From assembly GCA_017526745.1 (NCBI GenBank), contig JAFXQX010000017.1, positions 1-64,000 on the forward strand: DNA of 64,000 nt, given 5' to 3'. Under the pieces are notes generated by a model. It did not search any database and had not been told where the DNA came from. It was given only the letters and a program-made list of their open reading frames with translations. A program made the translations under genes and the position numbers. Shown here piece after piece: positions 8,346-61,052 of this stretch. The first letter of the stretch is position 1, and each line of letters starts with the position of its first letter. This DNA comes from Lachnospiraceae bacterium (GTDB lineage Bacteria; Bacillota; Clostridia; Lachnospirales; Lachnospiraceae).

Positions 8346-9422
8346 TTGAAGATAGTTTTTGGAGTACTGATCCTTGCGGTGATAGTGTTCACGCATGAAA
8401 TGGGACACTTCCTGATCGCAAGGCTGAACGGGATAGAGGTCGTTGAATTTACCGTCGGTTTCGGACCGAAGATATTCGGATGGAAAACTAAGGCAGGAAC
8501 GAAGATAGCCGTAAGGCTTATTATGCTCGGTGCGGCATGTGTGTTTGACGATCTTGATGCCGACAATGACGAGGATACGGATCTTGCCACTATGATAGCC
8601 AATTCGTCGTTTCGAAAGGCGAACGTCTGGTCCAGGATAGCGACAACGCTTGCCGGACCGTTCTTCAACCTTCTGCTCGCATTTGTTCTCGGCCTGTTCC
8701 TCATGAACTACATTGACATTCCCGATACAACGATCACCGGGATACAGACTGACGGAGCAGCATATGCGGCAGGGATCCGCGAAGGCGATAAGATCATAAG
8801 CGTGAACGGCAGCAGATGCTATCTGTATCCCGAGGTTTCAACCGCCGTTGAGCTCGGAGTGGGCCGCCCTCTTACCGTTGTATATGAACATGAAGGTAAG
8901 AGGATCAAGGTCGAAGTTGTGCCGAAGATGAATGAGCAGTATAAGCGGTTCATGATCGGTGTAGAGTTTGGAGGAGATACCGCTCCCGCTTCCGCAAAAG
9001 GTCCTCTTGAGATCGTAAAGTCAAGTTATCTTTATGTACGCTACATGGTAAGGATGACTTTTGCAAGCTTCAGAATGCTGTTCGCCGGACAGGCCGGGGT
9101 GTCGGAACTTGCAGGACCGGTCGGGGCCGCACAGATAGTCGGCGAAGAGTATGACAATGCAAAAGCAGCCGGTCCGCTTGCGGTTGTTGTCAGCATGCTG
9201 AACATAGCACTGCTTCTTTCCGCAAACATCGGCATTGTAAATCTGTTTCCCATCCCCGCATTTGACGGAGGAAAGCTTTTATTCCTCATATACGAAGCGA
9301 TCAGGGGGAAACCTGCCAACAGCAAAGTCGAGGGTACGATACAGCTTGTCGGTATAGGCCTTCTTCTCGTATTGCTCGTGGTCGTAATGTACAATGATAT
9401 AACACGGCTGTTTATGGGTTGA
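8346..9422 (+). CDS. rseP: RIP-type site-2 metalloprotease RseP
   Basis: 358 residues. Intramembrane zinc protease (M50B) that cleaves membrane anti-sigma factors and remnant signal peptides. Start is TTG 8346 with an AGGTGAT site; it places the zinc motif H17-E-M-G-H21 in the first membrane segment as the family requires. A PDZ domain spans about 130-200 (GIREGDKIISVNG), and the third conserved motif is NLFPIPAFDGGK, where most relatives have PALDGG. The usual GGYV loop after the first segment is changed to GAACVF, followed by a short acidic stretch. Last gene before a terminator. Confidence 0.95.
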   Translation: MKIVFGVLILAVIVFTHEMGHFLIARLNGIEVVEFTVGFGPKIFGWKTKAGTKIAVRLIMLGAACVFDDLDADNDEDTDLATMIANSSFRKANVWSRIATTLAGPFFNLLLAFVLGLFLMNYIDIPDTTITGIQTDGAAYAAGIREGDKIISVNGSRCYLYPEVSTAVELGVGRPLTVVYEHEGKRIKVEVVPKMNEQYKRFMIGVEFGGDTAPASAKGPLEIVKSSYLYVRYMVRMTFASFRMLFAGQAGVSELAGPVGAAQIVGEEYDNAKAAGPLAVVVSMLNIALLLSANIGIVNLFPIPAFDGGKLLFLIYEAIRGKPANSKVEGTIQLVGIGLLLVLLVVVMYNDITRLFMG

Positions 9423-9426
9423 TATA

Positions 9427-9495
9427 TGCCGGATGTCTTTCCGGCAGATTATACAAAACGTCGGTTTTCCGAAAAAAGGAAAATCGGCGTTTTTT
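9427..9495 (+). terminator. Terminator region after rseP
   Basis: A perfect 7-bp hairpin (TGCCGGA/TCCGGCA, 9427-9446) is followed by a longer stem, CGTCGGTTTTCC with GGAAAATCGGCG (9459-9489, with G-U pairs), and a T-run. It closes the unit that ends with rseP. Confidence 0.8.
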
Positions 9496-9577
9496 ATATT
9501 TTTCATATCATTTTTATACTGTGGGATCATTAATATCACGGGTGTTTTCGTATCAGTGTAGAATCGAAAGCTTACTG

Positions 9578-9607
9578 TTGACTGCTGCTTCCCGAGGGGT
9601 TTATTTT
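9578..9607 (+). promoter_or_regulatory. Possible promoter of the kinase operon
   Basis: TTGACT (9578-9583), 18-bp spacer, TATTTT (9602-9607), about 30 bp before the first possible start codon. The -10 is weak. Confidence 0.45.
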
Positions 9608-9635: not shown

Positions 9636-11111
9636 ATGATAGAAAAAGGAACGATGATACACAACCGATATGAAGTGGACTGCCTTATTGGACGGGGCGG
9701 AACGAGTGAGGTTTATCTTGTGATCGACCGTCATATAGGAAGGAGTCTGGCCATGAAAGTGATGGATAAAAGATCCATCGGCGCCCTCGGATTTGCCAGG
9801 AGCGAGATAGAGTCGCTGCGTCGAGTGAAATATCCGCTCTTTCCTGCGATAAATGATGCATTTTGCGATAAGGGCAGCATATTCATAATCAGTGAATACG
9901 TTAAGGGTACGTCTTTGTGGACCAGGTGCCGGGGACGGGGGCTTTCAAGGGACAGGAGCCTTGCGATCGCCCAGCGCATATGTGAAGCCCTGGTCTATCT
10001 TCACACATTGAAGAAACCGATACTGTATCTCGATATGAAACCGGAGAATATCATACTTGACGAGACCAATCTTCCGCATCTGATAGATTTCGGGATCGCC
10101 GGATGGCTTGCAACACGTCATATCCCGGTAGGGACAAGAGGTTATTCGCCGCCCGAACAGTACAGTTTCAGGATCCCGCCGGATGTCAGGGCGGACATAT
10201 TTGCCTTTGGCATGACATATTATGCGATCAGGCACGGAGTTCCCCCGGATCCGGATCCGAAGAAGGCGATATCGGATATCAGACACTCACACATTCTTTG
10301 TTCATCGGAAAGAGCATTTCTTGAAAAGTGCTGTGCTCTCTGTAAAGAGGACAGGTTCGACAACACACAGGCAGTTCTTTGTCAGATCAGACGAATAAGA
10401 TCTCACCCTGAAAGGATCAGAAAGAGCATTGAGATAACAACAATAACAGCGGGCATCATCCTTATGGCTGCATACGGTACCGGCACCGTTTCGGCGCGTA
10501 TCAGACAGAATGATGCGGCCGCCGCCCTTGTAAGGGAGACAACGGGTTATATGGAAAACGGAGAGTATACCCCGGAGGCGATAGGCATCATAAAGGCATG
10601 GATCAACAGCGGAAGCCTCTCTGAAGAATGCGAGCAGGAATTCATCTTTGAAGTTGCCGTCAATTCAATGCTCGTAGAGAAGAACTACAGGACGGCCGCA
10701 TCATATTTTGACAGGCTGGATCCGGCCAGGTATCCGGAAGCGGAAGGATACGGGAGGCTGTGCAGGATCCAGGGGAGCTTTTCACATGATACTGATGATG
10801 CGGTAAGGCTGATCGGAGAACTGTTCGCAGATATAATAAAGCGCTCTCCGTCGAGGATCAAATATGAGAATCTCATATTCATCGCCCATTGTTATGAAAA
10901 CTTTGAGCCTGACCGGTCCGAGGGGATCAAAAAGGCATTATCGGTCCTGGATATGGCAAGAGAAGAGATAAGGGCCGAGGGGGATCCCAAGGGAGAGTTT
11001 GATGATATGGAAAAAAGGATCGGGGAATTGATAACGGTAAAGAACAGGCGTCTTGACATAAGGCGGAACATGATAGGAGGAAACAATGAAGAGAAGAACG
11101 TTAAGGATTAA
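9636..11111 (+). CDS. Membrane Ser/Thr protein kinase (Hanks type) without PASTA domains
   Basis: 491 residues from ATG 9636; ATG 9654 (Met7) is an alternative. Cytoplasmic kinase domain ~12-260: glycine loop GRGGTSEVY, Lys41 in AMKVMD, catalytic YLDMKPEN with Asp133 and Asn138 (Tyr-Leu replaces the usual His-Arg of HRD), DFG at 151-153, activation segment VGTRGYSPPEQY. One membrane segment at about 264-285, then ~200 residues outside that look helical and repeat-like, possibly TPR-like. The PASTA repeats of PrkC-type kinases are absent. All catalytic residues are present, so it should be active. It overlaps the next gene by 26 bp, so the three genes up to 15308 form an operon; the two downstream proteins are candidate partners. 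Confidence 0.88.
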   Translation: MIEKGTMIHNRYEVDCLIGRGGTSEVYLVIDRHIGRSLAMKVMDKRSIGALGFARSEIESLRRVKYPLFPAINDAFCDKGSIFIISEYVKGTSLWTRCRGRGLSRDRSLAIAQRICEALVYLHTLKKPILYLDMKPENIILDETNLPHLIDFGIAGWLATRHIPVGTRGYSPPEQYSFRIPPDVRADIFAFGMTYYAIRHGVPPDPDPKKAISDIRHSHILCSSERAFLEKCCALCKEDRFDNTQAVLCQIRRIRSHPERIRKSIEITTITAGIILMAAYGTGTVSARIRQNDAAAALVRETTGYMENGEYTPEAIGIIKAWINSGSLSEECEQEFIFEVAVNSMLVEKNYRTAASYFDRLDPARYPEAEGYGRLCRIQGSFSHDTDDAVRLIGELFADIIKRSPSRIKYENLIFIAHCYENFEPDRSEGIKKALSVLDMAREEIRAEGDPKGEFDDMEKRIGELITVKNRRLDIRRNMIGGNNEEKNVKD

Positions 11112-13113
11112 GGCTTTTTCATTTATAGCCGCTTTTTTGGGAGGATTGCTCATATGCGGGGAAAATACCCGTGCGGGTGAACCGTATACGGGAGATCCGG
11201 GACGATACTATGTATGGCTTGAGGACTATGCGGTTGATGATGATACCGGTATGGAAAAACACAGCGGTGTTCATTTTGATTTCGTAACGAACGGGAAAAG
11301 GAAGGTCACTACCTATGACAGGAGAATGATGCTCAGCGGCATTGATGCCATATGGTTCGGTACTCCGAATGTCATAACATGTGATGCCTGCCGTGAAAAA
11401 GCGGAGGCGGCAGACCTTTATTCGGTCAGGATATATCTTGAAGATGACGACGGTAACGAGATCATTACAAGAAGCGGTGTAAGACTGGGTCCGGAGGATC
11501 TGAAGACCTGCGGGATAGATTTTGAAACACTTACAAAACCGCTGCGCATTGCGATCGAGATCACTCAGAAGCCCGGGGAATTCTGCGACAGCTGCTGCAG
11601 CCATATCGGAGATAACATAACGGTAGACGGTGTATACTGTCACAGGACCTGTCTTACGGTAGAGACCCCTCCGAGGGATACAAGTGCCGATCCAGGCGGT
11701 GTTGCGTATTTTAACATACAGTTGTCCAGATATGTCATGACTCATTCTCCGGATCCGAGAACATATTATAAATGGGCGATCAGGGAGGATAACGGAGAGT
11801 GGAGAAGGCTGATCGACGGTCCAGGACTGTACGGGGAATCTTATCTGGGAACAAACACTCCCAATCTTGCGATAACAAATGTGACTGACCTGCTTAACGG
11901 GAAAGAGTATGCCTGCGTTCTGAACGGGACATATGGCAAAAATATTATGTCAACCTCAGCAAGGCTTACCGTGAATGGGACCGATACTGGAGGATCGGCT
12001 GATCCGGGATCCGGCACAGACCCGGCCGTCGATCCGGCCCCCGATCCAGTCACAACACCCGCACCTGATCCCGGGGGGGCGGCAGATCCTGCGGCAACTT
12101 CCGATCCGCCTGTGACCGGGACAGTCCCTGCCCCCGCTGTTTTGGATCCGGCCGCAATCGACCGGCCCCCACACGGCGGTGATTATAAACCGTCCACATC
12201 CTCATCGGCATATGTCCCGCCTGCGGGACAACCGGTGCAGAATCCGGCGGCAAGACCTACGCCCTCGTATTCTTCGTCCAGCAGCAGGGCAGACCGGTCT
12301 GACGACGACAGCACTTACAGCAGGAGCACCATTGAGACCCATCTTCCCGGAGCCGGGGAGAAGATAACGGCATCAGCCCAGGGAAACAAGGGCACAGCAT
12401 CAGAGAATGGTCAGGCCCTATCAGGGGCAGGAACTGCGGGACCCGGAACTGCGGGTAAAGGAAGAACGGGATCTTCTTCAAAAGGATCGACATCAAAAGG
12501 ATCGTCATCAAACGGTTCGTCTTATGCATCATCGACATCGGTTTTAAAGAGGCCGAATTCATCAACTTTCATGAAGAACGGGATATTGTATGTGGTTGAC
12601 GATGATACGCCCGAAACAGGTGTGGGAGCATCATCTGACGGCGAAAAAGGTGATGGGGCGGATGTGACGAGCGTAGAGAACGAGAACGCGTATACGGCCT
12701 CCGATCTTGCGTCCGAGGGTCCGGTACAACAGCAGGAGCTGACCAGGGGATTTTTTGATACACTGCCCGGATACGCAGTAATAATACTGTCATCGCTCAT
12801 ACTGCTGCTTCTGGCCCTGTTCTTCCTGTTCTTCGGAGTTATCGTGTTCGGTGAGGTAGAGGAACATGACGAAGTATTTGAGCTTTGTGCGGTAAGGATC
12901 ATGCTCAGGCGTGAAGGAAACTGGTACATAAACCTGTCGTCTCTGTTCGACGACAATGCGGTGGTAAAGCTTCGTATCGGAATACTGTTTGCACGTATAT
13001 TTGACGGATGGGAACTGACCGGAGATACAAAAGGCGTATATGAAGGGACTGTTACCGGCCTGATCTGCCAGAACATGGAGATGCATCGCAAAGACATAAG
13101 GAGGAAGGTATGA
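11086..13113 (+). CDS. Secreted single-pass membrane protein with Pro/Ser-rich stalk and cytoplasmic tail domain
   Basis: 675 residues. Starts at 11086 after AGGAGGAAACA, inside the end of the kinase gene. Signal peptide at 1-27. Residues ~30-300 are extracellular, with two clusters of cysteines (CDACREK; CDSCCSHIGD, CHRTC) and an Ig-like stretch that ends with ALTCVLNGTYG-type spacing (about 200-300). A Pro/Asp/Thr-rich then Ser/Gly-rich stalk follows (~300-540). One long membrane segment at about 562-587, then ~85 residues inside the cell, a compact mixed domain. No family recognised. Layout resembles a receptor: outside sensor, stalk, one membrane pass, inside domain. Being co-translated with a kinase, its tail is a possible substrate; this is inference. 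Confidence 0.8.
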   Translation: MKRRTLRIKAFSFIAAFLGGLLICGENTRAGEPYTGDPGRYYVWLEDYAVDDDTGMEKHSGVHFDFVTNGKRKVTTYDRRMMLSGIDAIWFGTPNVITCDACREKAEAADLYSVRIYLEDDDGNEIITRSGVRLGPEDLKTCGIDFETLTKPLRIAIEITQKPGEFCDSCCSHIGDNITVDGVYCHRTCLTVETPPRDTSADPGGVAYFNIQLSRYVMTHSPDPRTYYKWAIREDNGEWRRLIDGPGLYGESYLGTNTPNLAITNVTDLLNGKEYACVLNGTYGKNIMSTSARLTVNGTDTGGSADPGSGTDPAVDPAPDPVTTPAPDPGGAADPAATSDPPVTGTVPAPAVLDPAAIDRPPHGGDYKPSTSSSAYVPPAGQPVQNPAARPTPSYSSSSSRADRSDDDSTYSRSTIETHLPGAGEKITASAQGNKGTASENGQALSGAGTAGPGTAGKGRTGSSSKGSTSKGSSSNGSSYASSTSVLKRPNSSTFMKNGILYVVDDDTPETGVGASSDGEKGDGADVTSVENENAYTASDLASEGPVQQQELTRGFFDTLPGYAVIILSSLILLLLALFFLFFGVIVFGEVEEHDEVFELCAVRIMLRREGNWYINLSSLFDDNAVVKLRIGILFARIFDGWELTGDTKGVYEGTVTGLICQNMEMHRKDIRRKV

Positions 13114-15308
13114 AAAAACTGGCCGGATTGATACTTTTTGCGGTCATGGCCCTGCCGGCGGTAGATATCAGAGCTCAGACTGCGGAAAAACTTGATGTTG
13201 ATATCAGAGCTTATGATAACGAAAAGATACTGATAATGCCAAACAGCAGGTATTACAGTCCCGTCCCCGTAACCTTCAGGCCGGGCAGGCCGGACAGCAG
13301 TTACAGCATAAGTATCGACGACGGAGCAAACTACACGGATTATACCCCGATGGATTCCGCAAGCCTTACTCTTTACCCGGATGATGAGACTTCACCGGCA
13401 AAAAGATGGAATATAAAATTTGGATGCGGTAATGGAGATGATGAGGTATTTTCCGATGTCTACAGCATTTCGTTCGATACCGAATCTCCCGTCATATCAC
13501 TTACGGATGACGATAAGATCTCAAAATGGCTTACGGAGGAAACAACGGTATCGCTGAAAGTGTCTGATGATGCGGGAATAGGAAGGGTCATATCAAGATC
13601 AGGTGATACGGTATTAGCGGAGTTTCACGAAACGGAAGGCGAGGAGATAAAAGAGAGGACGATAGAGCTGCCCCTTAAAAAGACGGAAAATAGATTCAGC
13701 ACCGTAGAGACCGTATGCTGCGATCTTGCCGGCAACTCCACGGTCATGACTTTTGATTATATGTATGATGATTCACCCCCGACCCTGTCGGTCAACGGCG
13801 TAGACAACGGCCTGATCACACCGGATCCGGTAAAGATAACGATGGCGGCGGATGACGAAGGGGAGGATGCATATATCTCATATACGCTTGAGCGGACAGA
13901 AGGTGACAGGGTAATAACGACAAGAGCGGAAAATATATGTAATACATCTTCTCTTGATATCGGGGAAGACGGTGCGTATACGCTTACCGTAAACGCATAT
14001 GATCCTGCGGGAAACAGATCCGAAACCGTGACCAAACATTTCCGGATAGATTCCGCGCCGCCGGAAATATCGATAAAGGGAGCAGGAGATACGGCCGATC
14101 TGCGTTCTTTTAGCAACATCATATTTGAGACTGCAGATGAGAGCGCCGGATCGACTGAGGTTAACATAACATTAAAGCGCACTTCGATGGGAAAAACCGA
14201 TATCATAGAGCTTGGACCATACACAACCGTAGCGGTCAATGACATCAGAGAGGTTAACATAAATTCAGACGGTGACTATGAGATAATGATGTCGGCAACA
14301 GACGGCGCGGGAAACATAAGCAGCGCCTATAAGAGATTCCGCATGGATTCGAACGCACCGGATATATCCGTCGCGGGTATCTCGGAAGGTGAGGTAACGG
14401 GTGATAAACCGATCGTAAGGTTCATGGCCGGAGAGATGTTCTACGATTCGACCATAATGACGGCCGTGCTTGAGAAAAAAGATAAGAACGGCTACAGGCA
14501 GGTTTCAAAGGATGAGCATGTCATGAAAGATGTGCGTGACCATATCGATATCAGGCCCGCCTCGGAAGGCCTTTACAGGCTGACATGCTTAGCCGCGGAC
14601 CGGTCGGGGAACCGGAATGAGTCGACAATATCTTTCACAGTTGACTACACACCGCCCGTGATCTCGCAAATGTCCGATATAGACGGGAATTATTTCAGAT
14701 CATTTTTGCTTCCGAAAAAGATAAAGGATCTTGTAAAGGACGCAACGAAAGTCGTGGCGTCGGCATACGTGAATGATGTGCCTTATCATGACGGCGACAG
14801 GATAATTCAGGAGGGAAGGTACGTGCTTACCATCCTCGCTTCGGATGAGGCGGATAACGTCTCGGAATCCTCGGCGGAATTTATAGTCGACCATACTTCT
14901 CCGCAGGTCGTACTTGAAGGGTTGGATAAGAACGGGAACATTTTGCCAAACTCTCTCATAAGGGTCAGCCTGTTCGACAGGGAGGATCACCTTGTTTCGG
15001 TAAAGTTCGGGGAGCGCTCCATCCCGGTAGATCCCGACGGCACCGCTTCATTTACGGTGGATGAGAGCTCCGGGCAGAAAATAACGGTTGTGGCAGCCGA
15101 TGATGCGGGCAATGTAACGGATACGGAAATACATATGCAGTACAGCATGGCCTCTTTTCTCCCCGGTCCTCTGACAGTAAAGGAGGTGTCGGCAGGCGAT
15201 GAGGCAGAAGAGGAGGATGCGGCCGATCCGCTTTCGCTTATGGTGGGACTTTTGTCGGTACTTTCCGGAAGTTTCGGCTTTGTTTACAGAACATTTTTGC
15301 GTGATTGA
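13110..15308 (+). CDS. Surface protein with repeated Ig-like beta domains and C-terminal membrane anchor
   Basis: 732 residues; ATGA overlap with the previous gene. Signal peptide at 1-22 (cleaved near RAQ-TAEK). At least five repeats begin with a D.T/S.PP.I motif: DTESPVISL, DDSPPTLSV, DSAPPEISI, DSNAPDISV, DYTPPVISQ, DHTSPQVVL, each ending near DxAGN or similar (DLAGNS, DPAGNR, DGAGNI, DRSGNR, DEADNV, DDAGNV). This is the bacterial Ig-like pattern common in adhesins. It ends with one hydrophobic segment (~707-727) and RTFLRD, so it is held in the membrane rather than by a sortase motif. Third gene of the kinase operon; no terminator follows. Confidence 0.85.
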   Translation: MKKLAGLILFAVMALPAVDIRAQTAEKLDVDIRAYDNEKILIMPNSRYYSPVPVTFRPGRPDSSYSISIDDGANYTDYTPMDSASLTLYPDDETSPAKRWNIKFGCGNGDDEVFSDVYSISFDTESPVISLTDDDKISKWLTEETTVSLKVSDDAGIGRVISRSGDTVLAEFHETEGEEIKERTIELPLKKTENRFSTVETVCCDLAGNSTVMTFDYMYDDSPPTLSVNGVDNGLITPDPVKITMAADDEGEDAYISYTLERTEGDRVITTRAENICNTSSLDIGEDGAYTLTVNAYDPAGNRSETVTKHFRIDSAPPEISIKGAGDTADLRSFSNIIFETADESAGSTEVNITLKRTSMGKTDIIELGPYTTVAVNDIREVNINSDGDYEIMMSATDGAGNISSAYKRFRMDSNAPDISVAGISEGEVTGDKPIVRFMAGEMFYDSTIMTAVLEKKDKNGYRQVSKDEHVMKDVRDHIDIRPASEGLYRLTCLAADRSGNRNESTISFTVDYTPPVISQMSDIDGNYFRSFLLPKKIKDLVKDATKVVASAYVNDVPYHDGDRIIQEGRYVLTILASDEADNVSESSAEFIVDHTSPQVVLEGLDKNGNILPNSLIRVSLFDREDHLVSVKFGERSIPVDPDGTASFTVDESSGQKITVVAADDAGNVTDTEIHMQYSMASFLPGPLTVKEVSAGDEAEEEDAADPLSLMVGLLSVLSGSFGFVYRTFLRD

Positions 15309-15333
15309 CTATATGCAAAAGACCATGTAAAAT
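15305..15333 (+). promoter_or_regulatory. SigA promoter of ispG-polC, overlapping the upstream stop codon
   Basis: TTGACT (15305-15310), 17-bp spacer, TAAAAT (15328-15333). The -35 box contains the TGA stop (15306-15308) of the preceding gene. Confidence 0.75.
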
Positions 15334-15403: not shown

Positions 15404-16459
15404 ATGTACAGGGACGAAACAAGAAAGATCCAAATAGGAGACCGCGTCATCGGAGGTGGAAGCCCCATCCTCATCCAGTCGATGACCAATACAAAGACAG
15501 AGGATGCCGATGCGACGGTAAGGCAGATAGAAAGGCTGCGCGAGGCCGGCTGTGATATCGTACGCGTTACCGTGCCGACCATAGAGGCCGCAAAGGCTCT
15601 TGGAAAGATCAAAAAAAGGTGCGATATCCCCGTAGTTGCGGATATCCATTTTGATCATAAGATGGCTCTTGCGGCAATGGAATACGGAGCCGACAAGATA
15701 AGGATCAACCCCGGAAACATCGGCGGAGCCGATAAACTGAGGGAAGTCGTTGCCGCGGCGAAAGAGCGGGGCATTCCGATCAGAGTCGGTGTCAACAGCG
15801 GCTCTTTGGAAAAGGATCTTGTCGAAAAGTACAAAGGCGTGACCGCACAGGGCATAGTCGAGTCCGCAATGGACAAAGTCCATATGATAGAGGACTGCGG
15901 ATACTCAAACATAGTCGTCTCTATCAAGTCTTCAGACGTGATGATGTGCGTAAGGGCGCATGAAGAGATAGCTCCCATCTGTCCGTATCCGCTCCATGTC
16001 GGGATAACGGAGTCGGGGACGGTAAAAAGCGGCAGCATCAGATCGGCAGTCGGCCTGGGGATCATACTTAACAAAGGGATAGGCGATACGATCAGGGTTT
16101 CCCTTACGGGTGATCCCGTCGAGGAAGTGGTTACGGCAAAACTGATATTGAAGTCACTCGGACTTCGCAAAGGCGGGGTCGATGTCGTATCATGTCCTAC
16201 CTGCGGCCGGACAAACATAGATATCATAGGGCTTGCGGGGCAGGTCGAGCGCATGGTTGCGGGCTATGATCTTGATATCAAGGTTGCAGTCATGGGGTGT
16301 GTCGTGAACGGTCCGGGCGAGGCCAAAGAAGCCGATATCGGTATAGCCGGCGGGATCGGCGAAGGACTTCTGATCAAAAAAGGAAAGATAATCAAAAAAG
16401 TTCCGGAGGATGAGCTTCTTGCCACACTCAAGGAAGAACTCGATAACTGGGACTGCTGA
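15404..16459 (+). CDS. ispG: (E)-4-hydroxy-3-methylbut-2-enyl-diphosphate synthase
   Basis: 351 residues, the short bacterial form. A [4Fe-4S] enzyme that reduces MEcPP to HMBPP, the sixth MEP-pathway step. TIM-barrel start: IGGGSPILIQSMTNTKTED, then CDIVRVTVP and ADIHFDHKMAL.A. Cluster ligands Cys264 and Cys267 (SCPTCGRT), Cys299 and Glu306 (GCVVNGPGEA) are all present. Weak ribosome site (GCAGAG). It has its own promoter, and polC follows after 15 bp. Confidence 0.97.
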   Translation: MYRDETRKIQIGDRVIGGGSPILIQSMTNTKTEDADATVRQIERLREAGCDIVRVTVPTIEAAKALGKIKKRCDIPVVADIHFDHKMALAAMEYGADKIRINPGNIGGADKLREVVAAAKERGIPIRVGVNSGSLEKDLVEKYKGVTAQGIVESAMDKVHMIEDCGYSNIVVSIKSSDVMMCVRAHEEIAPICPYPLHVGITESGTVKSGSIRSAVGLGIILNKGIGDTIRVSLTGDPVEEVVTAKLILKSLGLRKGGVDVVSCPTCGRTNIDIIGLAGQVERMVAGYDLDIKVAVMGCVVNGPGEAKEADIGIAGGIGEGLLIKKGKIIKKVPEDELLATLKEELDNWDC

Positions 16460-56835: not shown

Positions 56836-57468
56836 ATGTTTTTCAGAGATGACAACAAAGTAAGGATCAACCAGACATCGATAGCAACGTTTATCGGGGC
56901 GGACACAAAAGTGGAAGGTACGCTGATCACACGGTCTTCCGTCAGGATAGACGGAACGGTGGAAGGCGGCGTTGTGGCTGACGGTACGGTCGTACTGTCG
57001 CAGACCGGACAGATCATCGGCAATACGATAGCCGAGAACATCGTTGTGGCCGGGGTTGTGGAAGGAAACATCACCGTCAAGGACAAGACCAATATAGAAC
57101 CGACGGGAGAAGTATACGGCGATATCAGCACATCACGCATACTGATCGATGAACAGTCGGTGTTCCAGGGCAAGTGCAATATGAACATCGACAGGACCAA
57201 GACAAAAAAGAGCAGGCTGAAGGTCAAGGAGATCCCTTCCGGGGAGATGAAGGATACGGTTAAGGAAGTGCCCAGGGAAGCATCCAAAGAAACTCCCAAA
57301 GAAGCTCCCAAAGAAACTCTCAAAGAAGTCACAAAAGACACCTCCAAAGAGGCTTCTAAAGAGCCGGCCAAGGAGCCTGTAAAGGAGCCGGCAAAAGAGC
57401 CTGCCAAAGCGGCTCCCAAGACAGTAAAAGAAGAGAAGAAAGACAAACCGGATGAGCAGCAAAAATGA
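56836..57468 (+). CDS. Second bactofilin, with Lys/Glu/Pro-repeat C-terminal tail
   Basis: 210 residues. The bactofilin domain occupies ~15-118 (IGADTKVEGTLITRSSVRIDG, GVVADGTVVLSQTGQIIG, GVVEGNITVKDKT, GDISTSRILI). The last ~80 residues are a tail of KEAPKE/KEPAKE repeats, probably disordered and charged. Here the tail is C-terminal, while the first bactofilin (3263-4294) has an N-terminal tail. The end overlaps the kinase start by 17 bp. Confidence 0.9.
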   Translation: MFFRDDNKVRINQTSIATFIGADTKVEGTLITRSSVRIDGTVEGGVVADGTVVLSQTGQIIGNTIAENIVVAGVVEGNITVKDKTNIEPTGEVYGDISTSRILIDEQSVFQGKCNMNIDRTKTKKSRLKVKEIPSGEMKDTVKEVPREASKETPKEAPKETLKEVTKDTSKEASKEPAKEPVKEPAKEPAKAAPKTVKEEKKDKPDEQQK

Positions 57469-59065
57469 TGACCTGTTAAAAAAGATAGAGGAGCTTACCG
57501 AGGCCAACCGGTCCAAGAATGCATTCATTGCCAACATCTCCCATGAGATACGTACACCAATGAATGCGATCAGCGGATTCGCCGAGCTTCTGCTGCAGCT
57601 TGATGCATCCGATGAAGTCAATGAGTATGCCGGTGAGATAAAGAGTGCATCCATAAACCTTCTTGCGATCATCAATGATCTGCTCGATATTTCAAAGATC
57701 GAAAGCGGGCGTATGGAACTGGTGCCTGTTCCGTATTATCTCCACTATCTGTTTACTGATATCGAGTCAGTTATGTCCATCCCCACGAAGAAAAAGGGGA
57801 TCGAGTTCCGCATAAATGCCAATCCCGAACTTCCGAGCCAGCTGTACGGCGATATAGTCAGGATCAGACAGATACTTACGAACATCTGCAACAATGCCGT
57901 CAAGTTTACAAACGAAGGATACGTGGAACTGTCGGCAACGTTTATCGACGGTGAAGATGCGGACAGCATAATGCTCGAATTCAGGATAAGGGATACGGGT
58001 ATCGGCATCAGGAAGGATGACCTTGATCTGATATTCGATAAGTTCCGCCAGGTCGACATGAGGCTTAACCGAAACGTCGAGGGAAGCGGATTGGGACTGT
58101 CCATATGTAAACAGTTGACATCCCTTATGAACGGGACGCTTACTGTTGAAAGCGTATACGGTGAAGGCACGACTTTTATCGTAAGGATACCTCAGAAGGT
58201 GCTTGACCGGAACAAACTCTCCAACTATCTCGTCCACCAGAAACTTGAGGAGAAGAAGCATTCCGTTTTTTATGCCCCGTCAGCAAGGGTACTCGTTGTT
58301 GATGACAATCCGGTAAACTTAAAGATACTTCGCGGACTCCTTCTTCATTACGAGATCGATGCCGATACGACACTTTCCGGAGAAGAAGCCGTACAAAAGT
58401 GTTCAGAGAATGCATATGACCTCGTCCTTATGGATCATATGATGCCCGGCATGAACGGTGAGGAAGCGCTCGGCGCCATCAGAAAGATCGACGATCCCGA
58501 AAAGTGTGCCGTACCTGTGATCGTAGTTACGGCAAATGCGATCAGGGGAATGCGAGATGAGTTCCTGAGAAAAGGATTTACCGATTATCTGAGTAAGCCG
58601 GTTGAAACCCAGAAACTCGAGCAGGTGCTCAAGGACAATCTTCCTTCCAATCTTGTCCTGGCTCTCGAGGAAGATGAGTCCGAACAGCAGGATGAACTTG
58701 ATATAGAGATCAAGGGAATAGACGTTGATGCCGGACTTGCAAAGAGTGACGGAAATGCAAAGGATTATATAGAGATCCTAGAGATATTTACCGAGTACGG
58801 ACCGGCCAAGGCGAAGGAGATAGAGTCGTTTGCCGAAGCAAAGGATTATGAGAACTACGTTATAGCTGTTCATTCGTTAAAGAGCGTTGCCGCCAATATC
58901 GGAGCCCACCAGCTCTTTACAATGGCAAAGCTCCATGAATTTGCAGGTAAGAGCGGCAATACCGGGTTCATAGATGCCAACCGCAGGAAACTCGTTTCGC
59001 TTTATGAGGATATCATAACGAGTATAAATGAAGCTCTTGAAGGGATAGATAAGGAACAGGATTGA
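57452..59065 (+). CDS. Hybrid histidine kinase with receiver and HPt domains
   Basis: 537 residues, soluble, without an obvious input domain beyond a short coiled N-terminus. H-box FIANISHEIRTPMNAI with His31; N-box QILTNICNNAVKF; G-boxes RDTGIGI and GSGLGLSIC. Receiver (~285-405): VLVVDDNPVNL, acceptor Asp328 (VLMDHMMPGMNG), LSKPVE. HPt at the end with His474 (VHSLKSVAANIGAHQL). All key residues are present, so it can run a His-Asp-His relay. Starts inside the bactofilin gene; followed by two multi-receiver proteins. Confidence 0.93.
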   Translation: MSSKNDDLLKKIEELTEANRSKNAFIANISHEIRTPMNAISGFAELLLQLDASDEVNEYAGEIKSASINLLAIINDLLDISKIESGRMELVPVPYYLHYLFTDIESVMSIPTKKKGIEFRINANPELPSQLYGDIVRIRQILTNICNNAVKFTNEGYVELSATFIDGEDADSIMLEFRIRDTGIGIRKDDLDLIFDKFRQVDMRLNRNVEGSGLGLSICKQLTSLMNGTLTVESVYGEGTTFIVRIPQKVLDRNKLSNYLVHQKLEEKKHSVFYAPSARVLVVDDNPVNLKILRGLLLHYEIDADTTLSGEEAVQKCSENAYDLVLMDHMMPGMNGEEALGAIRKIDDPEKCAVPVIVVTANAIRGMRDEFLRKGFTDYLSKPVETQKLEQVLKDNLPSNLVLALEEDESEQQDELDIEIKGIDVDAGLAKSDGNAKDYIEILEIFTEYGPAKAKEIESFAEAKDYENYVIAVHSLKSVAANIGAHQLFTMAKLHEFAGKSGNTGFIDANRRKLVSLYEDIITSINEALEGIDKEQD

Positions 59066-60369
59066 TGTCGGATCTGCGTGTGATAATAATCGATGATGAC
59101 CATCAGAAGCGGGAAATGATCAGGAACGTTCTTCCTGACTATATTACATGCGCAACGGTCGGTTCTACGGAAGGAGCGCTTGACTACCTGAAAAGGGATG
59201 CGGAGGGCACGCTCCCCGATCTTGTCATATTAAACGGTGATGATCCGAAGAACTTCGGATTGTATGCGTTTGACTGGATGGTCAACAGGTCCGGTGATCC
59301 CGAGATAGCTTCGATACCGGTCATTGTCCTGACCGAGGATGAATTCTCCGATAAAAGCCTTGAGTTCCTGGAGATCGGCGACGTTACATTTTACGAAGGC
59401 GAGATCGATGAGAGTGCATTGTTCTCGACGATAAACGATGCAATAGAAGCGGCTGATTTTATCTACTATCCTCCCGTCATCCCTTCGTATGAAGAGACGA
59501 GGAACATAGACAGGCTTATGGGACAAAGCGTCAAGGCTCCGGGAGAAAAGGAAAAGCAGCGCGCCGTGGTTCTTGATATGGACACCAGGTTCTCAAACCT
59601 TGAGGCCGCACTTGAAAGAGGCAAAAAGAGGGCTGCCGAGATCAGGACGCTGCTTGACGCCGCTGCGAAGGTAAAAGGCGGGGATGATGATTACAGCCTG
59701 CGAAGCAGGAAAAAGCCCCATAAGAATAATGCCCCCGCAGGTTCTGCCACATCGTTTCTCGATAAGGCACGCAAAAAACAAAACGTTCAGGATAATAGTT
59801 CCGACGACGGACAGATGATAAAGAACATAGAATCGGAAGCCGAGTCGGATGCGTTAAGATCGATAAGCGAACTGAGGACCAAGGCCATAAACAATCCCGC
59901 AGGAGCTTTCAATGCCCAGGGATCGGTCCGCATGGAAGAGAGGCCCAGGAGCAGACCGGAAAGCGTGGATCCGGCAAGGAGAAGGCTGGTCGTTATCGTA
60001 GACAGCGATCTGAAGACAAGGAAACTGTGCTCGCTGTTCCTTACGCAGAAATACAATGTTGCCACATTTGACACCGGGATGAAGACGATAGACTATGTCG
60101 TCAAGACGCACGTGGATCTTCTGATCATCAACCCGCTTCTTCCGGGAATGAGCGGGATGTCGACCGTGTCGTCTCTTCGCCTGCAGCCCAGAGGCGAGAA
60201 TGTTCCGGTCATGTATCTTGTCGGCGATGATTTTAAGGGCTCGCGCGAGACACTCGTTTCGAGAAATGTTGTCGGGATCCTCACAAAGCCGATAAAACAG
60301 AGCGTGATCGCACAGGCGGTGGAAGGATTTTTCGATAACATCGACAGTATGGAAAGGTCAAGGTCATGA
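59065..60369 (+). CDS. Protein with two pseudo-receiver domains (Asp to Asn)
   Basis: 434 residues; ATG 59065 overlaps the kinase stop (TGATG). Receiver-like domain 1 at ~1-130: IIIDDDH is intact but the acceptor is Asn57 (LVILNGDD). A linker (~150-300) with a Lys/Arg-rich stretch follows. Receiver-like domain 2 at ~310-430: acceptor position Asn356 (LLIINPLLPGMSG), with the fifth-strand KP pair (LTKPI) kept. Neither can accept phosphate in the normal way. They may be locked in one state or act as binding modules for the relay. No DNA-binding output. Confidence 0.83.
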   Translation: MSDLRVIIIDDDHQKREMIRNVLPDYITCATVGSTEGALDYLKRDAEGTLPDLVILNGDDPKNFGLYAFDWMVNRSGDPEIASIPVIVLTEDEFSDKSLEFLEIGDVTFYEGEIDESALFSTINDAIEAADFIYYPPVIPSYEETRNIDRLMGQSVKAPGEKEKQRAVVLDMDTRFSNLEAALERGKKRAAEIRTLLDAAAKVKGGDDDYSLRSRKKPHKNNAPAGSATSFLDKARKKQNVQDNSSDDGQMIKNIESEAESDALRSISELRTKAINNPAGAFNAQGSVRMEERPRSRPESVDPARRRLVVIVDSDLKTRKLCSLFLTQKYNVATFDTGMKTIDYVVKTHVDLLIINPLLPGMSGMSTVSSLRLQPRGENVPVMYLVGDDFKGSRETLVSRNVVGILTKPIKQSVIAQAVEGFFDNIDSMERSRS

Positions 60370-61052
60370 AGAAAAGGATACTGATCGTTGATGATGATAT
60401 CATGACACTTCGGATACTGAAGAAGTATCTTGAAGGAACATATGATGTTGTTATCGAAAATGCGGGTTACAGGTTCATAGAAAAGATGAGCACATATAAC
60501 GCAGACCTTATACTGCTCGACATCGAGATGCCTGTCGTGAACGGCCTGCAGGCATTTGATGCGTTTCTGAAGAATCCCGATCTTAACGACACCCCGGTCG
60601 TATTCCTGTCCGGCATGTCCAATCCGAATCTTGTGCGTGAACTGATGAACAAGGGAGCCGCGGGATATCTTGTAAAGACCATACCGAAGGGTGAACTCCT
60701 TGCGCGTATCGAGAAGATCTTTTCCGAAAAAACAAAACGCACGGCCACTCCCGAAGTCCTGATCCTCGATAATGACATCGATAATCTCAGGGCCATGAGG
60801 GAAAGCCTTACCGCGAACAACTGTAAGGTAAAAGCCGTACGCACATCGGTGGAGGCCGTCGATCACATCAGGGATCATCATCCCAATATCTTTATCATAG
60901 GACATGACTCATCGGGCGTTGCGCCGCGTGATGTTTACGATTCTCTCGAGAACGTTATCCGGCAGGAGAGGGTGATACCTCTTGTGATGGAGGAGAATTT
61001 CTTCTCGACGGAACTGATCGAGAGAGTCAACGAAGCCTTAAATTTTAACTGA
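60366..61052 (+). CDS. Tandem receiver protein, first canonical and second degenerate
   Basis: 228 residues, ATGA overlap with the previous gene. Domain 1 (~1-122) is a full receiver: LIVDDDIMT, Asp52 (LLDIEMPVVNGL), and LVKTIP. Domain 2 (~128-228) has the fold but Gly179 at the acceptor site (IFIIGHDSSG). No output domain. It is a likely phosphate acceptor for the hybrid kinase through its HPt, relaying to protein partners. Confidence 0.85.
   Translation: MKKRILIVDDDIMTLRILKKYLEGTYDVVIENAGYRFIEKMSTYNADLILLDIEMPVVNGLQAFDAFLKNPDLNDTPVVFLSGMSNPNLVRELMNKGAAGYLVKTIPKGELLARIEKIFSEKTKRTATPEVLILDNDIDNLRAMRESLTANNCKVKAVRTSVEAVDHIRDHHPNIFIIGHDSSGVAPRDVYDSLENVIRQERVIPLVMEENFFSTELIERVNEALNFN

Follow-up and report, generated by a model that had tools for sequence, protein, structure and literature searches.

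The window, as the whole 64,000-nucleotide stretch of contig JAFXQX010000017.1 from a Lachnospiraceae bacterium (GCA_017526745.1) is called here, contains three overlapping genes that encode a membrane kinase (KIN), a stalked membrane protein with an Ig-containing head (B) and an immunoglobulin (Ig)-like membrane protein (C). The tentative reading preferred here, with a probability a little under one-half (roughly 0.47), is that KIN-B-C serves the type VII secretion system of the genus as its sensing and kinase arm, displaced to another locus. In a more specific form of this reading, put forward still more cautiously, an envelope receptor complex composed of B, C and the KIN outer domain, with its genes in a housekeeping slot, would gate type VII secretion in trans via phosphorylation of a GarA-like Thr on a vWA-FHA protein, with B as a new receptor-like family that has a conserved cytosolic domain. 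Published work only raises the possibility of kinase targets in type VII secretion, kinases often accompanying the newer subtypes (PMC11217815). Here, the data name one protein, and within it one Thr motif, as the likely target. As the kinase and the machine lie at separate loci, their joint gain or loss can be read independently. Whether phosphorylation acts through FHA domains to switch type VII secretion, and which signal triggers it, becomes directly testable.

The distribution of these genes was established from searches of 60 relatives, with gene order taken from the corresponding regions and the genus taken as labeled for these genomes. The genus is broad, as polC identity falls to 56–60%. 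In the KBC arrangement, found in the species of the window and 11 others, the trio is present in 12/12 species of the clade. The same three genes, strongly diverged and with a shorter KIN outer domain, are found in the KBC3 species (G012 and G014). The idea of a single unit, raised in a first-pass annotation of the window, is supported by this conservation. The KC arrangement of a sister clade (11 genomes, with a second copy carried by G032) consists of the kinase and C without B, and the Bc arrangement (G010, G028, G030 and G034) of B and a short C of 137–159 aa without the kinase. Besides these four main arrangements, G019 and G024 carry a kinase that lacks the outer domain, together with a B and a C of 314 aa. 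In a polC tree, KBC, KBC3, KC and Bc form four fully supported clades, which indicates that the gene arrangements are inherited. Likewise, an EssC tree gives one clade for each arrangement, consistent with inheritance of the type VII machine by clade, and its deep branches are long and uncertain.

In the clade that lacks the kinase, a phosphothreonine-reading site of the type VII locus is lost as well. An Arg and an Asn residue of the FHA family bind phosphothreonine. In the vWA-FHA protein, both residues (found in the motifs GR and NG) are kept in 22/22 readable species that have KIN or the KIN-C pair: 11 KBC, 2 KBC3, 8 KC and G553, among which G023 and G035 are nearly identical. The kinase-less set used for comparison comprises the four Bc species; G002, G005, G007, G008, G013 and G016 lack the kinase too and are not in the Bc clade. 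In 4/4 of the Bc species, both residues are substituted, the Arg by Ala, Ser, Ser or Lys. A Thr motif located just before the FHA domain follows the same pattern. It is present in all 22 kinase-bearing species, mostly as TRLL (TRVL in G017, TLIL in G011 and TMLF in G553), and in all four Bc species it is gone along with most of the linker. Because PASTA kinases occur in all these genomes, the loss tracks KIN. With a Thr motif N-terminal to an FHA domain that has intact Arg and Asn residues, the vWA-FHA protein has the predicted makeup of a GarA/OdhI-like FHA switch. EssC carries an FHA domain with the binding residues in KBC (G025 lacks the Asn) and in KBC3, and the Bc EssC proteins have no FHA domain. 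A connection between kinase and FHA domain drawn via EssC alone was rejected, as the KC EssC proteins have no recognizable FHA domain and the pattern is not clean.

The outer domain of KIN also points to type VII secretion. A narrow profile of this domain found only the genome of the window among 295 genomes of the order. A wider profile that includes the KC and KBC3 sequences found matches in 12 other genera of the family (E down to 5e-12), and 12/12 of these fall in membrane kinases, after the transmembrane (TM) segment. For most of these kinases, the gene order is FHA protein, PP2C phosphatase, kinase, small TM protein and large Ig protein with a C-terminal TM segment. Some of the clusters adjoin WXG100 genes, and in G039, from another family, an FtsK/EssC-type ATPase is present as well. 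Gene sets of this FHA/PP2C/kinase/Ig type have been published for subtypes d, e and j of type VII secretion (PMC11217815).

In the genome of the window, the WXG100 genes are found on contig C26, separate from the contig of KIN-B-C. This type VII locus (G000:C26, L207 1-18000) encodes EssC with an N-terminal FHA domain, a WXG100 pair, a TM protein with a C-terminal FHA domain and an Mbeg1-like hydrolase, and no kinase, phosphatase/PP2C or Ig gene was found in it. A vWA domain is recognized in the KC, KBC3 and Bc orthologs of the TM-FHA protein, which has no DUF6382 match. The same type VII core is present in the congeners that were read. The locus fits none of subtypes c–j, as described in PMC11217815, clearly and may represent a further subtype. 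Apart from these comparisons, the Mbeg1-like alpha/beta-hydrolase (lipase-like) gene directly follows the vWA-FHA gene in nearly all 27 type VII loci read (L207 7958-9271 in the genome of the window), and its product would be a new core component or else a substrate with a wide distribution. The EssC proteins of the Bc clade are only 946–1027 aa long and lack the FHA domain (L212, L213, L219 and L220), and in two of these species, G010 and G034, the locus now lies beside a multi-pass transporter gene, having moved from its place next to an argG-like gene.

Based on its sequence, KIN is an intact non-RD Hanks-type membrane Ser/Thr kinase. The protein matches Pkinase (PF00069, E = 7.5e-33), residues K41, E57, D133, K135, N138 and D151 are invariant in 20 relatives, and the non-RD assignment reflects the replacement of HRD by YLD. 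A Pfam scan revealed no PASTA repeats, in agreement with the first-pass description of a membrane kinase of this type, and the score against NCBIfam NF033483 is 100, relative to a cut-off of 450. The hydrophobic segment of KIN is under the TM threshold in the window protein and over it in most orthologs. A PDB fold search with the all-helical outer domain returned nothing significant (best E = 0.05), and no match between KIN and EssB was seen in the Pfam or PDB searches. The only kinases matched in the genome are KIN and PrkC, and its one PP2C gene is located directly upstream of PrkC, with none at the KIN locus.

The architecture anticipated for B, namely an outer Cys/Ig region, a long stalk, one membrane pass and an inside domain, is borne out by the alignment and structure predictions. 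The head is predicted by AlphaFold2 with a predicted local distance difference test (pLDDT) value of ~90 across most of residues 35–300, and it combines a CxxC…CxxC beta domain with an Ig domain. Foldseek matches of the head to Ig domains reach a target-normalized template-modeling score (TMt) of 0.68, and the search with B otherwise returned mostly generic Ig folds. The head is followed by a low-complexity stalk of ~190 aa that differs in length among orthologs, a conserved juxtamembrane box (MKNGILYIVDDD), a single strong TM segment at residues 565–583 and a tail of ~88 aa. This tail is among the best-conserved regions of B, is kept in the KBC, KBC3, kBc and Bc clades, and matches beyond the trio clade in hidden Markov model (HMM) profile searches (E = 5e-6 to 5e-9); its predicted structure folded poorly. 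The suggestion that phosphorylation of the tail acts as a switch is unlikely to apply generally, because no Ser, Thr or Tyr residue of the tail is invariant. B has no match in Pfam or NCBIfam, and a B profile searched against 297 other genera of the family returned nothing full-length, its hits there being generic Ig or low-complexity matches. No counterpart of B is known, and with its conserved cytosolic domain it may represent a new family of receptor-like proteins. As an aside, positions 1-378 of the window encode a protein end with a low-complexity repeat of the TPTPTPTK type, similar in style to the stalks of some B orthologs.

For C, at least five Ig-like repeats and a C-terminal anchor had been noticed; ~7 modules are counted here from repeated D-x-A-G-N … F-x-V-D-x-T-x-P motifs, ahead of a C-terminal TM segment. 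The Pfam matches comprise Big_13 (E = 9.1e-16 over four stretches) and other Ig-like families. No wall-sorting or adhesin-specific domain exceeds its cut-off, the matches being to generic Ig-like families only, and NF033510 also remains under the cut-off. What C has in common with the short C proteins of the Bc clade is the N-terminal module, and the Ig array is variable among clades.

Combined, these features suggest a route from the envelope to the secretion machine. A signal at or beyond the wall would be met by C, as an Ig rod, and by B, with its CxxC/Ig head on a long stalk. Through contacts that are presumed among B, C and KIN, this signal would act on the TPR-like outer domain of the kinase and change its state. 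The kinase would then phosphorylate the Thr of the TRLL motif just ahead of the FHA domain in the vWA-TM-FHA protein, its putative substrate. Finally, the FHA domains of this protein, and of EssC where present, would read the phosphate, and secretion would be switched, by either activation or repression.

The KIN, B and C genes encode 491, 675 and 732 aa, respectively. The KIN/B overlap of 26 bp and the B/C overlap of 4 bp are exactly as first described when compared with the list of open reading frames (ORFs). The 4-bp overlap, the set of ORFs and the gene order recur in congeners, which is more than chance would produce. The trio is flanked by a housekeeping series, frr-uppS-cdsA-dxr-rseP upstream and ispG-polC downstream, for which the gene names were assigned by sequence recognition. 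A hairpin and T-run comparable to the terminator after rseP (Table 1) is present in the congeners for which the intergenic sequence was viewed. Based on this terminator, the promoter and a 27-bp conserved element (CACGGGTGTTTTCGTATCAGTGTAGAA), KIN-B-C is probably a transcription unit of its own that is privately controlled. The 27-bp element is found upstream of KIN in 12/12 KBC species with 0–1 mismatch; the pattern was written without G020 and G015, which still match. There is one strong site per genome. The genome of the window has no second site within two mismatches, and the only other sites among the 12 KBC genomes are single two-mismatch sites in G006 and G029. A pattern search found the element in none of 10 KC-clade genomes. 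The KC leaders have a different conserved element (AACATATCRGRCGGAWTCCGTC) with a palindrome (GACGGAATCCGTC; for example, G017:C38:10355-10384), placed downstream of a TTGACA…TACTAT promoter and ahead of KIN. This element, a candidate operator or RNA hairpin, occurs once per KIN copy and at no other site in those genomes. An Rfam search of the leader gave no match near the gathering score.

Table 1 Features of the KIN-B-C region, in window coordinates
Feature	Position	Strand	Basis or remark
rseP	8346..9422	+	ORF list; order kept in congeners; upstream boundary of the unit
Rho-independent terminator after rseP, 16 pairs	9455..9493	+	Terminator scan
27-bp ungapped conserved element	9537..9563	+	~15 bp before the −35, between terminator and promoter
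KIN promoter, TTGACT-18-TATTTT	9578..9607	+	TTGAC at constant spacing in 11/11 aligned species
KIN gene	9636..11111	+	ORF list
KIN TM segment, residues ~264–285	10425..10490	+	Hydropathy in orthologs
KIN outer domain, all-helical, TPR-like	10488..11108	+	AlphaFold2, pLDDT 86, predicted template-modeling score (pTM) 0.82
B gene: signal peptide, head, stalk, TM segment, cytosolic tail	11086..13113	+	ORF list, hydropathy, alignment
B head: CxxC…CxxC beta domain (C99, C102, C167, C170) and V/I-set-like Ig domain	11173..11979	+	AlphaFold2, Foldseek
B cytosolic tail, residues 588–675	12847..13110	+	Kept across clades (see text)
C gene: signal peptide, ~7 Ig-like modules, C-terminal TM segment	13110..15308	+	Pfam and alignment
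C N-terminal module	13173..13484	+	Common to C of other clades; HMM E = 2.8e-12 to 4e-4
Promoter-like site before ispG, TTGACT-17-TAAAAT	15305..15333	+	10/12 consensus; the scan often gives chance matches
ispG	15404..16459	+	Downstream neighbor in most genomes with a KIN or C gene

KIN and C resemble the pairs TseD/TsdD/TsjD and TseI/TsdI/TsjI of type VII subtypes e, d and j (Garrett et al. 2024, PMC11217815), in which an active membrane Ser/Thr kinase with a helical outer domain (TPR in subtype j) is located beside an Ig-like protein with a signal peptide and a C-terminal TM segment. With TseD/TsjD, KIN shares the N-terminal active kinase domain, one TM segment and a helical/TPR outer domain; with TseI/TsjI, C shares the signal peptide, several Ig-like domains, the C-terminal TM segment and the position next to the kinase. 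FHA readers in the same cell are likewise common to TseD-type systems and this genome. In contrast to TseD, KIN lies outside a WXG100/EssC cluster, having rseP and ispG as its neighbors, no PPM phosphatase is present at the locus, and the FHA partner is a vWA-TM-FHA rather than a DUF6382-FHA protein. In addition, C is far shorter than the published TsdI (732 versus 1654 aa), and B is an extra protein without profile homology to the small TM proteins that take this place in other clusters. It is concluded with moderate confidence that KIN works like TseD; it is not filed as TseD because it is outside the cluster, lacks the phosphatase, has a different FHA partner and is not joined to that group in the kinase tree. 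The statement that no named system has this set therefore stands for B, which has no known counterpart, and does not stand for KIN and C, which match the TseD/TsjD and TseI/TsjI layout. A literature search found no description of the exact kinase-B-C set.

Other systems share individual features with the trio. Like the PASTA kinases PrkC, StkP and IreK, KIN has a Hanks kinase domain, a single TM segment and an outer sensor domain, but it has no PASTA repeats, and its clade is distinct from that of the PASTA kinases encoded in these genomes. EssB/YukC of T7SSb, the pseudokinase of that system, similarly has a kinase-fold domain, a TM segment and a helical outer domain, whereas all catalytic residues are present in KIN. 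The GlnH-GlnX-PknG-OdhI pathway of Actinobacteria (PMC9769921) follows the same logic, with an outer binding protein, a membrane link, a kinase and an FHA protein with an N-terminal Thr; it differs in having a soluble kinase, PknG, a metabolic target, and unrelated proteins outside and in the membrane. In the PpkA-Fha-Tag pathway of Thr phosphorylation in type VI secretion (PMC5995506), an envelope kinase under the control of envelope signals and an FHA reader also switch a secretion machine, but the machine and the phylum are different and no Tag proteins are present here.

Several results weigh against assigning KIN-B-C to type VII secretion. Because the four kinase-less species form one clade, the joint loss amounts to a single event, in which no fewer than three linked characters changed. 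In the KC clade, KIN is present even though EssC has no recognizable FHA domain, and the Bc clade retains B and a short C without KIN. In G581 (98% complete), a KIN-C pair is found at the same place with no WXG100 match, its kinase being outside the KIN clade. Furthermore, C is linked to TseI by layout and Ig content, with no specific profile match, and KIN is not grouped with TseD in the poorly resolved kinase-domain tree. The G581 pair and the separation of the KIN lineage from TseD in this tree, along with the promoter, terminator and private element at a site that is not linked to the type VII genes, speak for a stand-alone envelope-sensing unit instead. In such a unit, B and C would detect the state of the wall or surface, and KIN would signal in PASTA-like fashion to cytosolic targets unrelated to secretion. 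This explanation is considered rather unlikely: it leaves unexplained the loss of the FHA residues and the Thr motif exactly in the kinase-less Bc clade, as well as the occurrence of the nearest outer domains mostly within FHA-PP2C-kinase-Ig clusters. The idea of one envelope-sensing unit, already voiced in the first-pass annotation, is partly supported by the promoter and terminator, the outer domains, the membrane links, the intact kinase and the constancy of the trio in its clade; the set is not fixed, however, as B is absent from KC and KIN from Bc.

Surface display offers another explanation for B and C, of which Ig-like arrays and a stalk are typical, and the length of the C array does vary among clades. 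According to this proposal, both would be surface binding proteins (adhesins), with KIN merely controlling their export or assembly. It is improbable, given that B and C are anchored in the membrane and not in the wall, that C of the Bc clade keeps the N-terminal module rather than the Ig array, and that a strongly conserved cytosolic tail such as that of B is unusual for an adhesin. The term adhesin, used earlier for this operon, is not supported, and no adhesin-specific domain above its cut-off was found. Very improbable, finally, is regulation by KIN of its neighbors, either rseP or isoprenoid and lipid-carrier synthesis (uppS, dxr and ispG). The constant position beside ispG, often after rseP, would be accounted for, but the strong terminator and separate promoter set the unit apart, the KIN-C pair of the KC clade has lost the link to rseP and follows other genes, and ispG is present in clades with and without KIN.

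Further observations concern the wider occurrence of these genes. The KC-clade neighbors (448 aa, 306 aa and others) were considered as Tad pilus genes on the basis of protein length, and this assignment was rejected since the sequences look like ordinary housekeeping proteins. G032 has two different KIN-C-ispG-polC copies in one assembly and is probably a mixed bin. In G553 and G581, which belong to other genera, the order is rseP-kinase-C-ispG without B. The G581 kinase is of the YRD type, and the kinase-C pair of this genome (L194 6998-10619) is possibly an independent arrival in the same slot. A contig search with a single C protein returned no match; with a C alignment, it returned 11 Lachnospiraceae metagenome-assembled genomes that represent the same species set, several of them from ruminant guts. 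At an unrelated locus of G445 (L177 7193-10488), a 500-aa weak match to the KIN profile is followed by a C-like Ig protein of 602 aa. Elsewhere in the window, positions 57452-61052 contain successive ORFs whose starts resemble those of a sensor histidine kinase and of two response regulators.

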